Source: an uncultured Clostridia bacterium
GTDB lineage: Bacteria > Bacillota > Clostridia > Oscillospirales > Ruminococcaceae
NCBI GenBank assembly: GCA_947389015.1
Contig: CANDVA010000001.1
Location: 156,872 to 220,871, forward strand
DNA: 64,000 nt
Direction of reading: 5' to 3'
The notes below the pieces were generated by a model. That model did no database searches. It had not been told where the DNA came from and was given only the letters and a program-made list of their open reading frames with translations. Below are positions 3,967-45,282 of this stretch, piece by piece; the first letter of the stretch is position 1, and every line of letters begins with the position of its first letter. Made by a program: the position numbers and the translations under genes.

Positions 3967-4596
3967 TCATACCTCTAGCACATATCTGCTCAACACCTCT
4001 TTGAGCGAGACCTCGCTGACCGCCGCGTCAAGCGCGCCTTTGCCCGACGCGCCGACAAAGTAGCCGCCGAATTCTATCGCGGTGGTGTCAGGCAGCTCCA
4101 ACGAGTTCACGCCGCGAAGGTCGCGCGTTATGCCGATACCGAGACGCTTCAGGAACGCTTCTTTCTGCACCCAAAACCGCAGGAAATCGCCGTTTGAGGT
4201 GAGGTGAAACGTTTCCTCGTCCGACAGCACGCGCTTGTACATTGCCTCGTTTACGCGCCTGTCCTTGCGCTCGATATCAACGCCGATCTCTTCCTTATCC
4301 GAGAACGCCGCGCAAATCGCGCCGTGAGTGTGCGATAACGAAAACTGCACTCCGCCTGTTTTGAGATACGGCTTGCCGTGAGTTCCGAGCTCGAATTTGA
4401 GCTTTTTCAGCGGCAGCTTTGTCCGCTTTGACAGCTCCGACAGTATCAGCAGCTGCGAAAGCAGCGCGTTTATTCTGACGCCGTCGCCCTTTTTCTTCAT
4501 TATGCCGCGCTGCCGCGATCCCGAAAGACAGCCCATGTATCCCTCAAGCTCGCGCCATGTTAAATTTTCGTTGACTTGTAATAATAAAATATCCAA
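3967..4596 (-). CDS. 4'-phosphopantetheinyl transferase, Sfp type
   Basis: The enzyme transfers phosphopantetheine from CoA to a serine of acyl or peptidyl carrier proteins. The sequence shows the family's FSLSHTHGAICAAFS segment, the Mg-binding GVDIERKDRR, and the catalytic WVQKEAFLKRLGIG block. At about 209 aa it has the size of Sfp/EntD rather than of AcpS. I prefer a TTG start at 4596, since GGAGG lies 8 nt upstream of it; the upstream ATG at 4611 has the GGAGG inside its own codons. No carrier-protein synthase is in the window, although a condensation-like acyltransferase lies at 38.8 kb. It follows the Rsm22-like gene by 17 nt, probably in one transcript. Confidence 0.85.
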   Translation of the reverse strand: MDILLLQVNENLTWRELEGYMGCLSGSRQRGIMKKKGDGVRINALLSQLLILSELSKRTKLPLKKLKFELGTHGKPYLKTGGVQFSLSHTHGAICAAFSDKEEIGVDIERKDRRVNEAMYKRVLSDEETFHLTSNGDFLRFWVQKEAFLKRLGIGITRDLRGVNSLELPDTTAIEFGGYFVGASGKGALDAAVSEVSLKEVLSRYVLEV

Positions 4597-4613
4597 AATA
4601 ATAGCCTCCATTG

Positions 4614-5555
4614 TTAAAATTTATCACCCGTATTTGATTTTCTTGCCGCTTTGAAGCGCGGGTCCTTTTTCGTGACCAATCGTGTTGAAACCGCGCTTTC
4701 CGAGCATACGGTCAGCGTGATCTTTCCGGTTTCTATGAACGGGCGGCGGAGTATCCTGCCGGTGCAGGGTCGGGCGTTCTCTCTTGCCGCGGCGAGAAAG
4801 CAGAATTTTTCGTCCTCGTATGGAACGTCCGCTCCCTTTAGCTGCTTATGTATCCGAGAACGCGCCGCCCGCGCCGTAAAGTGACACCAATCGCTTTCGG
4901 GCAAGGGACAGTCTCCCGTATTCGGGCAGGGTGCGGCGATAGTCAGTCCGCTCTCCGCAAGCTGCCCGCGCATTTGCTTAATATTTGAAAACGCGTTCGG
5001 AGTGCCGGGCTCTACGATAAGCAGCAGCTTATTTGCGGCGTTGGCAAGCTCCGCGACTGCAATCGCTCTCCGCGCCGCAGAGAGCTCGTTCATACAGTAC
5101 GAGCAGATCACCAGATCCGCTTTTTCGGGTATGCCTTGCGAGATATCGTGCCTTATCCACTTGCCTTGAATGTCCATACAGGCGAAAAAATCTTGTCCGA
5201 GCGCTATCATATTCGGCTCGCGCTCAACACATTTGACATCGGCACAGTCAGTCGTCAGCACCGCCGCGATAGCTCCCGCTCCTGTGCCCGCGCCTACATC
5301 AAGTATCGATCGTATTTCTCCGTCAAAGCACTCGAGAGCAAGCTCAAGCGCGCGGCTCACGGCTGCGAACGTAGCGGGCATTCTCACCGCCGCGTATGCG
5401 AGTATATCGCGTCGCTCCGAAACGGAACGCTTGCCGTCGCCGCGTTCGTCGCGGTAACGTTCGGAAAGCGTTTCCGCGGATTTTGCGAGCGCACGTATAT
5501 CCTCGCTCTCCATAAGAGAGTTTATTTTATTGCGGAGCTGAACGGGAAATTCCAT
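4614..5555 (-). CDS. Rsm22-family methyltransferase (ribosome-associated)
   Basis: The 313-aa protein has a SAM-binding motif ILDVGAGTGAGAIAA near residue 85, followed by the Rsm22-type cysteine block CPNTGDCPLPESDWCHFTAR in the C-terminal third, which in homologues may bind metal or Fe-S. Relatives act on or assemble with the mitochondrial or bacterial small ribosomal subunit. The start at 5555 has GAAGGTGAG upstream. A longer in-frame extension to a TTG at 5717 has no family similarity that I can see and a poor ribosome site. The promoter at 5772-5800 leaves a leader of about 210 nt whose content I do not recognise. It is followed by the Sfp-type gene. Confidence 0.8.
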   Translation of the reverse strand: MEFPVQLRNKINSLMESEDIRALAKSAETLSERYRDERGDGKRSVSERRDILAYAAVRMPATFAAVSRALELALECFDGEIRSILDVGAGTGAGAIAAVLTTDCADVKCVEREPNMIALGQDFFACMDIQGKWIRHDISQGIPEKADLVICSYCMNELSAARRAIAVAELANAANKLLLIVEPGTPNAFSNIKQMRGQLAESGLTIAAPCPNTGDCPLPESDWCHFTARAARSRIHKQLKGADVPYEDEKFCFLAAARENARPCTGRILRRPFIETGKITLTVCSESAVSTRLVTKKDPRFKAARKSNTGDKF

Positions 5556-5771
5556 TTTCTCACCTTCATTTATAAGCAAAATACGCCGAACGCTGCGCTG
5601 TCTGTAAAATTCAAAATTGTTTTTCGGTTTGGCTGTCCGAGCGTTAAACCACCCGCTTGACTTCGCGGAGTTATAAGCCGTATCGTAAGGCAAACGACAA
5701 CAGGCTTCTCTCTTCAAAGTCTTTTCCCAACGAATATTTGCTGTTGCAAATAATTAACTGTTTATAGATAC

Positions 5772-42617: not shown

Positions 42618-42712
42618 AAGACAGCGTTTTTTGCAAGCGCCGCGGCAAAACGCCATGGCGCAGGGCGTGGATTCGAACCCGCATTAGCCGTCATAGCTGC
42701 TGTTGCTGTCTT
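42618..42712 (-). ncRNA. Y-RNA-like unit 8 (T-arm type)
   Basis: An 8-bp closing stem (42705-42712 with 42618-42625; AAGACAGC at the 5' side) is followed by AA-CAGCA. Inside are a T-arm-like hairpin with TTCGAAT loop (42669-42682 and flank), a self-complementary CGCCATGGCG in the acceptor position, and a TTTTGC/GCAAAA stem-loop in the D-arm position. Its 3' stem ends at 42618, directly before the DUF2828 ribosome site (42610-42617). Confidence 0.7.
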
Positions 42713-42736
42713 TCATGCAGTGAACTTAGACTTTAC

Positions 42737-42827
42737 AAGACCGCATTATCCTCACCGAAGCGGAAGCCCCGGAGCGGCGGGATTCGAACCCGCAGTAACC
42801 AATCTTATTTATTGCTGCTGCGGTCTT
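42737..42827 (-). ncRNA. Y-RNA-like unit 7 (T-arm type)
   Basis: A 9-bp closing stem (42819-42827 with 42737-42745) overlaps or abuts CAGCA (42813-42820). It encloses a perfect T-arm (42777-42793, GCGGG/CCCGC with TTCGAAT loop) and a 7-bp acceptor-like stem capped by TTCC. Confidence 0.75.
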
Positions 42828-42831
42828 AAAC

Positions 42832-42902
42832 TCGGCATATTTTTAACGGCGGTAAGCCGAAGCCCCGTCTCCGTTCCCCTGAAGCGATGCTGTTAATGCC
42901 GA
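42832..42902 (-). ncRNA. Y-RNA-like unit 6
   Basis: A 7-bp closing stem (42896-42902 with 42832-42838; TCGGCAT at the 5' side) is followed by TAA-CAGCA. The interior has an AACGG/CCGTT stem with a bulge and a loop containing GGCTTCGGCT. Confidence 0.65.
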
Positions 42903-42922
42903 AAAAAAGCTTGTATCAGCTT
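42902..42922 (-). terminator. weak terminator after Y-RNA-like unit 5
   Basis: AAGCT and AGCTT form a 5-bp stem followed by seven T on the minus strand. It may define the 3' end of unit 5. Confidence 0.5.
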
Positions 42923-42926
42923 GTAC

Positions 42927-43024
42927 ACGGCGCGCTTGGCGATGCTCTACCGACTGAGCTACGGGGCGAACGCCCGGCGGGAGTCGAACCCGCGACACTC
43001 TGTAAGAATTGCTGTGTGCGCCGT
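42927..43024 (-). ncRNA. Y-RNA-like unit 5, circularly permuted tRNA
   Basis: A 7-bp closing stem (43018-43024 with 42927-42933; ACGGCGC at the 5' side) is followed by ACA-CAGCA. Then come a perfect T-arm (42977-42993, TTCGACT loop), acceptor strand CGGGCG, a 3-nt link, acceptor strand GCCCCGT, and a canonical D-arm (42943-42960, AGCTCAGTCGGTAGAGCA). The order T-arm, acceptor, D-arm is the reverse of a tRNA and equals that of bacterial YrlA Y RNAs, where the anticodon arm is replaced by the Ro-binding stem. Confidence 0.85.
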
Positions 43025-43063
43025 TGTCCTTACCGCGGATGTGCGGCTGTCGGAGCCGCTTCC

Positions 43064-43141
43064 TCGGCTCGTTTTTCATACGGGACCCGACCGCGAAGAG
43101 CAGACGGGCGCCCCGCGTCACAAAAATGCTGCGCGAGCCGA
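43064..43141 (-). ncRNA. Y-RNA-like unit 4
   Basis: An 8-bp closing stem (43134-43141 with 43064-43071; TCGGCTCG at the 5' side) is followed by CG-CAGCA. The interior is G/C-rich with an ACGCGGG/CCCGT-type stem; no clear T-loop. Confidence 0.65.
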
Positions 43142-43164
43142 ACCGCGGTTTATTTTTTGATTTC

Positions 43165-43221
43165 AAGGCACCTTTAAATCATTATGGTTATGAAATTTAA
43201 ACTCGCTGCTGCTTGTGCCTT
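43165..43221 (-). ncRNA. Y-RNA-like unit 3 (smallest)
   Basis: A 7-bp closing stem (43215-43221 with 43165-43171; AAGGCAC at the 5' side) is followed by AAG-CAGCA. The interior forms one A/T-rich hairpin (TTTAAAT with ATTTAAA plus CAT/ATG). Confidence 0.65.
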
Positions 43222-43239
43222 AATATTTCGTACGGATAC

Positions 43240-43327
43240 ACGGTGCCGCGGACAGCCCCTCGGTAACGAACCGAAGGAGTTTCCGTTTCGAAGCCGTCCG
43301 CGTTTCCTCTGATGCTGTACGCACCGT
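43240..43327 (-). ncRNA. Y-RNA-like unit 2 (T-loop type)
   Basis: A 7-bp closing stem (43321-43327 with 43240-43246; ACGGTGC at the 5' side) is followed by GTA-CAGCA. It encloses a 10-bp stem (CGCGGACGGC with GCTGTCCGCG) that holds a T-arm-like hairpin with a 7-nt TTCGTTA loop. Confidence 0.7.
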
Positions 43328-43343
43328 ATTGCCGGGTTTGTAC

Positions 43344-43405
43344 ACGGCTCGTCGGGAGACCCGATATTTCGTGACAGGAAATTGATTTGCTGCTGTACGA
43401 GCCGT
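43344..43405 (-). ncRNA. Y-RNA-like unit 1
   Basis: A 9-bp closing stem (43397-43405 with 43344-43352; ACGGCTCGT at the 5' side) is followed by A-CAGCA. The interior holds ATTTC/GAAAT and CGGG/CCCG hairpins. It begins 5 nt after the stop codon of the 143-aa gene. Confidence 0.7.
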
Positions 43406-43410
43406 TATTT

Positions 43411-43842
43411 TCAGCCGTCTAGCTCCTTCAGAAGCCCGGCCGTTATGTACGCGTCCCCCTCGTGAGTGGTGGTGTAGAAAAGCGCCGCGCCGCTGCTGTC
43501 GAGGAACGCGATATCGTCAAGCCCGAAACCCGTTTCGAGGACGCTGTCAATACCGTTTTCGTCAGTCGTGCTGAGAAAGAAACATTCGTAACTTCGCAGA
43601 TGCTTAAAGAACGTCTTATCCGCGCGTACTGTGAATTTTGGAGAACCGCGACCGCCCCGCCTTGTGCCGTGCCATTTGTTGACGAGCTCCTTATTTATAA
43701 GGAACGGTATGGCCGCCTTGATAAGAGGCTCGGTCAGGTCTTCGCCGCATATCTGAACTATCTCGATAGTCCGTGTTCTATTTTCGAGAATGTTAAGCAT
43801 CCGCAGGTGCTGATCATGCGATGTAAGACATATGTTTTCCAT
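43411..43842 (-). CDS. unknown 143-aa protein between rtcB and the RNA array
   Basis: The protein (MENICLTSHDQHLRMLNILENRTR at the N-terminus) has a mixed alpha/beta pattern, a basic central loop (NKWHGTRRGGRGSPKFTVRADKTFFKHLRSYE in pieces, about 57-85) that could touch RNA, and an acidic C-terminal half with FLDSSGAALFYTTTHEGDAYIT. I do not recognise the family. The ribosome site GAAAGGAG lies directly against the 3' stem of noncoding unit 0, so its translation may depend on that RNA. Position inside the rtcB-DUF2828 operon suggests a function in RNA repair or in handling of the Y-like RNAs. Confidence 0.75.
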   Translation of the reverse strand: MENICLTSHDQHLRMLNILENRTRTIEIVQICGEDLTEPLIKAAIPFLINKELVNKWHGTRRGGRGSPKFTVRADKTFFKHLRSYECFFLSTTDENGIDSVLETGFGLDDIAFLDSSGAALFYTTTHEGDAYITAGLLKELDG

Positions 43843-43856
43843 CAGGATCTCCTTTC

Positions 43857-43918
43857 ACGGCTCGCGGAGGGTATCCAACCTTCTCCTTGTGTGGAGGATA
43901 ATTTGCTGTTCGAGCCGT
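43857..43918 (-). ncRNA. Y-RNA-like unit 0 (between rtcB and the 143-aa gene)
   Basis: An 8-bp closing stem (43911-43918 with 43857-43864; ACGGCTCG at the 5' side, nearly the same as unit 1) is followed by AA-CAGCA. The interior has CTCC/GGAG and a T-arm-like GG-TTGGATA-CC hairpin. Its 3' stem ends at 43857, directly before the ribosome site 43849-43856 of the 143-aa gene. Confidence 0.7.
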
Positions 43919-43922
43919 ATCT

Positions 43923-45152
43923 TTAACCCTTGATCACTCCTATCGTGAACAGTTTCTTTACCGCCTCGGTAAGATCGGTTTGATTAGCCATCACCTGATC
44001 TATGTCCTTGTAGGCGAACCGCGATTCCTCGGCGACGTCGGATTTGTTGTGCTTTGCGAGAACGACGTTCTGCGCCTTGAGGTCGCACATAACGCTCTCG
44101 ACGGAGAAATTCGCGACCGCAGCCGTTCTCGAATACGCCCTCCCCGCGCCGTGCGAGCTGGACATAAAGCTCATCGGCTCGCCTTTTCCGCGTACTATGT
44201 AGCTGAACGACCCCATAGCGCCCGGGATAATCGCAAGCTCGCCCTCGCGCGCCCGTATCGCACCCTTGCGGTGAACGTAAACGTTCTTCCCGTAATGGTT
44301 TTCAAGCGCGGCGTAGTTGTGGTGGCAGTTGATTTCGCAGGAGTACTCGGGTTCAATATTAAGATACTTGACCGCGTATTTCGTGAACGTCTCCTTTATC
44401 TTATCAAGCATTACCGACCGGTTCTCGTAGGCGAAATCCATCGAGAGCTGCATCCACTCGAGATAGCGTTTTCCCTCGTCGGTATCGGCGGGCAGGAACG
44501 GCAAATTCCACTCGGGCGGCACCTTGGAGTGCCACTTCTCGTTGAGCGCGTGAGCTATCTTGTTGAAGTACTGCCCGACGATATTTCCGAAGTGACGGCT
44601 TCCCGAGTGCAGCATTATGCAGCACATGCCATTCTCGTCCTCCTGCAATTCGATGAAGTGATTTCCGCCGCCGAGTGTGCCGACCTGAAAATATCCCTCG
44701 TCGATCTGCGGTAATAACTCCTTGTCGAATTCGTATTTCTCGCCCTGCTCCTTAGCCTTGTCGAGTACCGCTGAGGGCTGAGGCTTTTTGTAGTGATTGA
44801 ACCCCGTCGGGATATTACGGAGGATATCGCCGCATATCGCGCGGACAAGATCTCCGCTGCCCGTGACTGTCTCGCGTAGCAGCGACGCGGGAACGTTCGT
44901 CTGTACAAACGCCATTCCGCAGCCGATATCCACGCCCACCGCGTTCGGGATAACAACCCCGTCACAGGCAATTACGCCGCCTATCGGCATACCCTTGCCC
45001 TTATGCGTGTCTGGCATAAGCGAAACCCATTTATATACGAACGGCAAGCGCGAGAGGTTCTCCGCCTGTGCAAGGCAGCCGTCCTCTACTGTTCCCGGTT
45101 CCGACTGCCATATTTTTATCGGCGCGCCGTCGTCGAGCTTATGTATAAACAT
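43923..45152 (-). CDS. rtcB: RNA-splicing/repair ligase RtcB
   Basis: RtcB joins RNA 2',3'-cyclic phosphate or 3'-phosphate ends to 5'-OH ends with GTP and Mn2+. All hallmarks are present: MPDTHKGKGMPIGGV, GVDIGCGMAF with metal cysteine, GGGNHFIELQ, MLHSGSRHFGN, the metal-binding CEINCHHNY, and the HRKGAIRAREGE block with the guanylylated histidine. The length (about 409 aa) is that of the short bacterial type. I choose ATG 45152, about 9 nt after GAAAGGGG; an ATG two codons earlier is possible. No RtcA cyclase is nearby. It heads the operon with the Y-like RNAs and DUF2828. No clear sigma-54 site was seen upstream. Confidence 0.95.
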   Translation of the reverse strand: MFIHKLDDGAPIKIWQSEPGTVEDGCLAQAENLSRLPFVYKWVSLMPDTHKGKGMPIGGVIACDGVVIPNAVGVDIGCGMAFVQTNVPASLLRETVTGSGDLVRAICGDILRNIPTGFNHYKKPQPSAVLDKAKEQGEKYEFDKELLPQIDEGYFQVGTLGGGNHFIELQEDENGMCCIMLHSGSRHFGNIVGQYFNKIAHALNEKWHSKVPPEWNLPFLPADTDEGKRYLEWMQLSMDFAYENRSVMLDKIKETFTKYAVKYLNIEPEYSCEINCHHNYAALENHYGKNVYVHRKGAIRAREGELAIIPGAMGSFSYIVRGKGEPMSFMSSSHGAGRAYSRTAAVANFSVESVMCDLKAQNVVLAKHNKSDVAEESRFAYKDIDQVMANQTDLTEAVKKLFTIGVIKG

Positions 45153-45282
45153 TTTCATTCGCCCCTTTCGTTTTTGGCTGTGACTTAATTCTAACATATA
45201 TTTCCGAAAAAATCATATAAAAAAATCTGCGAACACTAAAAGGGGTTGAAAAAAGCTCTTATTTCTGTTATTATTAAATAGG

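Follow-up and report, generated by a model that had tools for sequence, protein, structure and literature searches.

The 64,000-nucleotide (nt) stretch of DNA analyzed here (the window; positions 156,872 to 220,871 of contig CANDVA010000001.1, assembly GCA_947389015.1) stems from an uncultured Clostridia bacterium of the family Ruminococcaceae. On its minus strand the RNA ligase gene rtcB, a noncoding unit (unit 0), a gene for a protein of 143 amino acids (aa), eight further units (units 1-8) and a gene for a protein of the DUF2828 family follow one another in this order. This gene order and the nine units had been proposed in an earlier note on the window, and a scan for the motif CAGCA located 0-3 nt inside the 5' strand of a closing stem with 7 or more base pairs (bp) recovered nine of nine units, all on the minus strand from position 43918 down to 42618. 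The architecture of the locus, an array of such units next to a Ro-type neighbour, is regarded as near certain.

The closing stems are 7-10 bp long with at most one G-U pair, instead of the perfect 7-9 bp given previously; the placing of CAGCA was as described, and the four stem classes occur with the same counts (ACGG in four units, TCGG in two, AAGG in one and AAGA in two). In the other 62.7 kb of the window only 7-bp stems were found, with nine hits at eight places on the plus strand and one hit on the minus strand. The closing stem forms in the predicted minimum-energy fold of all nine units, the z-scores ranging from -1.6 to -4.9. As the stems served to find the units, the pairing among the nine is partly circular; unit counts in relatives and an alignment of seven units of the YrlA type, a known kind of Y RNA, are less circular controls than the window stems.

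For the counts in relatives, a protein search yielded 101 confirmed matches in genomes, of which the best 80 served as genome loci, together with 12 viral loci, and units were counted within 700 bp 5' of the DUF2828 gene. One genome locus had too little sequence, leaving 79 usable ones. These contain 256 units as compared to 5.7 in shuffled sequences (about 45-fold enrichment), with at least one unit upstream of DUF2828 in 75 and at least two in 65 of the 79 loci. The reverse strand gave three units and six control motifs gave two to seven each, and 413 kb of DUF2828 genes plus downstream sequence from these loci contained 68 units, a density slightly above that of shuffles. Among the viral loci, 5 of 12 showed at least one unit and 1 of 12 at least two. 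A second sample, not picked by peptide patterns, was obtained by searching 293 genomes of the class with the profile PF11443, which passes its cut-off in 13 genomes and gives a match at E<=0.001 in 16. In the 12 DUF2828 genomes of this sample other than that of the window, at least one unit was present within 1.5 kb in 11 and at least two in 10, as counted without a shuffle control; a few of these units may be chance. The single genome without units encodes a DUF2828 protein that is only 26% identical. The presence of units beside DUF2828 in related genomes, on which the earlier note had made its proposal depend, is thus seen in both samples.

Taking the 92 loci and the window together as 93 sources, 82 have units within 1.2 kb (median 3.5, maximum 9). 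The full set comprises 296 units, 290 of them with distinct inner parts. An A precedes CAGCA in 255 of these 290 units, and the 5' stem strand occurs as 147 distinct strings. The nine units of the window belong to a wider class found 5' of DUF2828 that has a stem-plus-ACAGCA handle in common. Hairpins arising by chance, or attenuators in the DUF2828 leader, are an exceedingly improbable explanation of the units: the array region does contain seven terminator-like matches against a shuffle mean of 4.5 (standard deviation 2.0), but the enrichment over shuffles and the exact tRNA loops described below speak against it. Promoter-like matches number two against a shuffle mean of 2.4, and neither of the two classes of match is informative.

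The earlier note had recognized that the inner parts of the units vary and missed what they are. Their largest identifiable share consists of tRNA parts, namely T-arm or elbow modules, whole tRNA-like cores and isolated anticodon arms. T-loop hairpins are present in 56 of the 290 units (shuffles: mean 1.0, maximum 5) and anticodon-type hairpins with the loop pattern YUNNNA in 61 (shuffles: 6.2, maximum 12). An anticodon hairpin is followed by a T-arm in 13 units, and a D-arm by a T-arm in two more. When those T-arm units were considered that have at least 10 nt upstream (n=63), the D-loop-like motif TGG[TC] was found 5' of the T stem in 26 and on the 3' side in one, with 6.6 in shuffles; the arrangement of T-arm and TGG[TC] tends to be that of a tRNA elbow. 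A count made without prior choice of loops gave 16 seven-base hairpin loops that occur at least three times, and mononucleotide shuffles never gave more than two copies of a loop. Five of the 16 are T-loops and eight are anticodon loops, the others being AACTATA, AACCATA and one other; five of the eight anticodon loops are also in the list of host loops described below, and taking CTGTCAA, CTGCCAA and CTTCTAA as anticodon loops is our own reading.

In a scan of 60 loci, ARAGORN reported tRNA genes at eleven units, which belong to eight of the loci. The called units sit inside closing stems (loci L028, L043, L046, L047, L055, L067, L071 and L074) and probably carry a wrong tRNA annotation in public databases. 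Furthermore, a recurrent long module (e.g. AGGGACAGAGAACGC...GCAGGCACTCTG) is common to several Ruminococcus arrays (L007, L009, L011, L016, L021, L038 and others); no model RNA was identified for it.

As a reference for the anticodon arms, the 31 anticodon loops of this genome's own tRNAs were used. In 32 of the 290 units a hairpin loop is exactly identical to one of these host loops, as compared to 0.49 units (maximum 3) in dinucleotide shuffles, one unit for 22 loops with reversed anticodon and three units for the 31 fully reversed loops. The matched loops are those of tRNAs for Phe (GAA, 9 units), Lys (UUU, 6), Met (CAU, 5), Asn (GUU, 4), Ser (GCU, 3) and Asp (GUC, 2), with one unit each for Leu (UAA), Ser (UGA) and Leu (UAG). 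Compared over 5 stem bases, the 32 arms with such a loop match the stem of the cognate host tRNA at 1.8 positions; for host stems drawn at random the figure is 1.4. Descent of these arms from host tRNAs, with this genome's tRNAs as the reference, is disfavoured because the stems differ; to judge from the sequences, the anticodon loops would have been copied and the arms not inherited.

It is likewise very improbable that the units are tRNA-derived debris, i.e. functionless remnants or mobile copies of tRNA genes. Whole tRNA-like cores and the tRNA calls by ARAGORN would fit such an origin, but the units lie almost exclusively on one strand (3 reverse against 256), have a constant handle and compensatory changes, keep their loops while the stems differ and are tied to DUF2828.

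One unit of the window, unit 5, matches the Rfam model of YrlA (RF02553) over the full model length with 50.3 bits and an E value of 5.5e-10, which is below the gathering score of 69 bits. It has the whole layout that YrlA requires, with the closing stem and the permuted T-arm, capped acceptor stem and D-arm, and thus bears out the naming of the units as Y-RNA-like. Units 0-4 and 6-8 gave no YrlA match up to an E value of 5; unlike YrlA, other units of the window and its relatives bear other modules, including anticodon arms. Compensatory change among the nine units had been put forward as strong evidence for a conserved RNA structure, an argument that the circularity mentioned above weakens for the window and that holds for the YrlA-type units. 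Seven of these were aligned by MAFFT, leaving out those of L056 and L058, the 3' ends of which were misplaced. Of the alignment cells 98% are paired over 22 pairs, and pairing drops to 35-58% when the partners are slid by 1-3 columns. Two-sided changes are seen in 8 of the 22 pairs as compared to 3.3 in shuffles, a value reached by 1 of 500 shuffles, and in the closing helix in 4 of 7 pairs. A measure of further pair types was unexceptional, since 92 of 500 shuffles reach it. The D-arm helix is invariant across the aligned units, and the acceptor hairpin leans towards the aligned rows, as it was placed after they had been seen.

TROVE-type Ro genes are present in 5 of the 293 genomes of the class. 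At E<=0.1 a single YrlA match was obtained in every one of these five loci (scores 42.0-50.9), and the CAGCA-stem scan gave only scattered hits there (0-3 per strand in 8.5-9 kb). Since there is one YrlA match per TROVE locus, the expanded arrays go with DUF2828 in this sample, and the nine units of the window constitute the expanded and diverse set that had been claimed.

Parts of a review (PMC8394870) describe for YrlA that its tRNA-like domain is composed of D, T and acceptor arms, that YrlA binds PNPase via this domain and that it is modified by DusA and TruB. It is conceivable, although less likely than not, that the tRNA-like modules bring enzymes that bind tRNA (the exonuclease PNPase, or enzymes of tRNA modification or maturation) to the DUF2828 ring, and that the partners and substrates of the ribonucleoprotein depend on the module. 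T-arm/elbow modules are common and, by the TGG[TC] count given above, elbow-like, which such recruitment would explain better than decoys do. It is not obvious, however, why recruitment should require so many anticodon identities, or scaffolds in which the anticodon changes.

The DUF2828 protein itself shows a full-length Ro60 fold, a HEAT-repeat ring plus a vWA domain, in its predicted structure, at 12% sequence identity to the structure 2i91. Its resemblance to Ro, as put forward earlier, is therefore supported, and binding of Y RNA by it is predicted. Unlike Ro60/Rsr, the protein has no match to the TROVE profile (PF05731) at E<=1; the only matches are DUF7788, DUF2828 and two non-TROVE families below cut-off, and PF05731 has no match anywhere in this genome. 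The 143-aa protein has no match in Pfam, NCBIfam or PADLOC. Its predicted model is confident (mean predicted local distance difference test score, pLDDT, 93.8) and gave no clear fold match in the PDB. Among the genus loci examined, its gene was found in the window and in G026 only. The positions of all features are collected in Table 1.

Table 1. Features of the array locus; coordinates are positions in the 64,000-nt window and all features are on the minus strand.
Feature	Position	Strand	Observation
rtcB, RNA ligase gene (start codon provisional)	43923..45158	-	Pfam PF01139, E 2.4e-110
Unit 0, short, 5' of the 143-aa gene	43857..43918	-	8-bp perfect stem, CAGCA 2 nt inside; counterpart in G026
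143-aa gene inside the array	43411..43842	-	67 homologues at E<=0.01
Unit 1, anticodon-arm unit	43344..43405	-	9-bp stem; hairpin ATTTC-CTGTCAC-GAAAT
Anticodon-arm mimic in unit 1	43366..43382 (loop 43371-43377)	-	loop CTGTCAC identical to the tRNA-Asp(GUC) loop of this genome
Unit 2, long structured module	43238..43329	-	stem; folding z-score -4.9
Unit 3, hairpin with loop AACCATA (43183-43189)	43163..43223	-	stem; loop shared with three genus relatives
Unit 4, long structured module	43064..43141	-	stem; counterparts in the genus
Unit 5, YrlA-type, permuted tRNA-like domain	42927..43024	-	Rfam RF02553 match; covariation in seven-unit alignment
T-arm of unit 5	42977..42993	-	
Capped acceptor stem of unit 5		-	
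D-arm of unit 5	42944..42962	-	
Unit 6	42832..42902	-	stem
Unit 7, T-arm/elbow unit	42737..42827 (T-arm 42777-42793)	-	stem; ATTGGT ahead of T-arm; tmRNA model matches T-arm
Unit 8, T-arm unit	42618..42712 (T-arm 42665-42683)	-	stem and sequence; end adjoins DUF2828 ribosome-binding site
DUF2828/DUF7788 protein gene, 487 aa	41139..42602 (gene start 42602)	-	predicted Ro60 fold (HEAT ring plus vWA)

The link to RtcB is close within the genus and looser beyond it. DUF2828 is present in 5 of 43 genus genomes, and a close RtcB (85-94% identical) is found in the same five, the copy of G029 lying on another contig; 13 other genus genomes have a distant RtcB only. A tblastn search with the window RtcB (E 1e-5), by which very distant RtcB proteins may be missed, detected RtcB in 36 of the 80 genome loci, genus members included. 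In loci with 3 kb on both sides RtcB was seen in 30 of 51 (16 close, 14 distant) and not in the other 21. RtcB nearby is frequent and not obligatory, so that the connection drawn in the earlier note stands for the genus and in part for the wider set. The scattered distribution across genomes suggests that the system is an accessory one.

RtcB also matters for the idea that the units are themselves cut and religated and in this way sense tRNA-cutting activity, gating DUF2828 or switching on the operon. Anticodon loops are displayed beside an RNA ligase gene, and according to parts of PMC7790460 the Salmonella rsr-yrlBA-rtcBA operon responds to cleaved tRNAs and is active under conditions that yield tRNA fragments. 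The loci without a detected RtcB argue against this idea, and so does the statement in the same source that the nuclease responsible for tRNA cleavage in Salmonella leaves YrlA uncut; we regard the idea as quite unlikely.

Some loops resemble rRNA rather than tRNA. General rRNA mimicry was not significant as a whole, because unit loops of 7-9 nt match candidate loops of E. coli rRNA in 7 of 290 units, which is within the shuffle maximum of 9 (mean 2.5). The loop AACTATA, present in L016, L026, L031 and L045 (in L045 inside a unit with a T-arm), is identical to the E. coli 23S rRNA loop 1912-1918, which we take to be that of helix 69, and the loop AACCATA of unit 3 differs from it by one base. 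These two loops may represent rRNA mimicry on the same handle. From five sarcin-ricin strings that were tried in the units, two were absent and three shorter ones occurred in L047 or L059 only. Between unit 4 and unit 5 (about 43030-43062) the sequence ACAGCCGC...CCGCGGTAAGGA resembles the 530 loop of 16S rRNA by eye; the scan calls no unit there.

Real tRNA genes, or what appear to be such, occur in the vicinity of some units. The viral contigs L083 (about 4480-4600), L092 (about 5460-5660) and L093 have DUF2828 together with YrlA-like permuted modules or units, some of them beside genes that look like true tRNA genes; the motif of L083 is CAGCG. In L075 a compact tRNA-Leu-like gene (4411-4481) lies between two array units, outside any detected closing stem.

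With a probability of about 0.4, we propose that the nine Y-RNA-like units with their tRNA parts are decoys for tRNA-cleaving nucleases, with RtcB repairing the damage. The array would be transcribed and processed into separate RNAs, and binding of their common stem-plus-ACAGCA handle by the DUF2828 protein encoded next to the array is predicted. Nucleases that cleave tRNA would bind the tRNA parts on display and so be drawn away from the real tRNAs, and RtcB would reseal whatever is cut. We infer each of these steps from the locus and its relatives, across which units carry different tRNA pieces including anticodon loops, and are for this reason likely nuclease decoys. The main support for this proposal is that, among matched units, variation in the loop of the arm is greater in the anticodon than at the other positions. 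Over 27 pairs of units with flanks at least 70% identical, which form ten groups and are not independent, the loops differ at position 34 in 11 pairs, at 35 in nine, at 36 in two, at 38 in five and at 32 in two, and at positions 33 and 37 in none, while the flanks differ at 0.12 per site. In matched units of related species one scaffold, AACGCTCATA[loop]TATGATAACG, contains the loop CTTTTAA in three loci, CTGCTAA in one and CTGTTAA in one, so that within the same surroundings the anticodons read Lys, Ser or Asn.

Several observations weigh against the decoy proposal, including the dependence among these pairs. Of 69 units tested, 38 have the anticodon arm in their unconstrained minimum-energy fold, a number that rises to 48 with CAGCA kept single-stranded, and the arm is absent from the unconstrained fold of unit 1 of the window. 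T-arm/elbow modules are not what one would expect an anticodon nuclease to read. By crude sorting, 169 of the 290 modules (90 short, 79 long) are without a class, which is an overcount because several units sorted as T-arm only are permuted and a few of the other long ones are tRNA-like by eye and by ARAGORN. No PADLOC model matches any of the three proteins (RtcB, the 143-aa protein and DUF2828), RtcA (PF01137) and archease gave no match in this genome, which is 96% complete, and the resistance of Salmonella YrlA as well as the 21 loci without RtcB count here, too. Finally, the mechanism as a whole is a suggestion drawn from sequence and prediction.

Going one step further, the short array of each genome might represent an evolving library of exchangeable decoys on a Ro-type ribonucleoprotein. 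Copies of anticodon loops and of tRNA elbows, perhaps also of the 23S loop assigned above to helix 69, would bear the handle, a change in the threat from nucleases would be answered by a switch of anticodons, and RtcB would serve as the repair partner. Such a system would amount to an immunity against ribotoxins that is founded on a repertoire of RNAs; we regard it as possible but rather unlikely.

Ro proteins, YrlA and RtcB operons are already known. In the portion of Hughes et al. 2020 (PMC7790460) drawn on here, it is suggested that the tRNA-like domain of YrlA may competitively inhibit an anticodon nuclease. As in the Salmonella rsr-yrlBA-rtcBA operon, to the extent covered by the same portion, a Ro-type protein, Y RNA and RtcB occur together at the window locus, where RtcB adjoins the array. 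In contrast to that operon, DUF2828 replaces the TROVE-type Rsr, there are nine units as compared to the two in the operon name, the genome has no RtcA match and an extra 143-aa gene is present. RtcB2-PrfH, as described in parts of PMC9223846, is similar in that a sporadic gene of the RtcB family is paired with a partner and protects against a ribotoxin; it differs in its partner, PrfH, and in the kind of damage, cleavage of 16S rRNA. A literature search, with limited coverage of subscription journals, gave neither titles nor abstracts that deal with arrays of Y RNAs or with Y RNAs carrying anticodons, which does not establish their absence from print. Apparently new are the arrays with as many as nine units, the exchange of tRNA parts among them, the anticodon arms that stand on their own and the anticodons that differ within a single scaffold.

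Gene finders will mistake some of the units for tRNA genes, as ARAGORN does. The arrays provide a natural experiment, in which one handle carries many tRNA parts and anticodon loops differ while their surroundings stay the same. If the units are indeed decoys, this would explain why Ro proteins, Y RNAs and RtcB occur together, and would add a novel form of defence against toxins that cut tRNAs.

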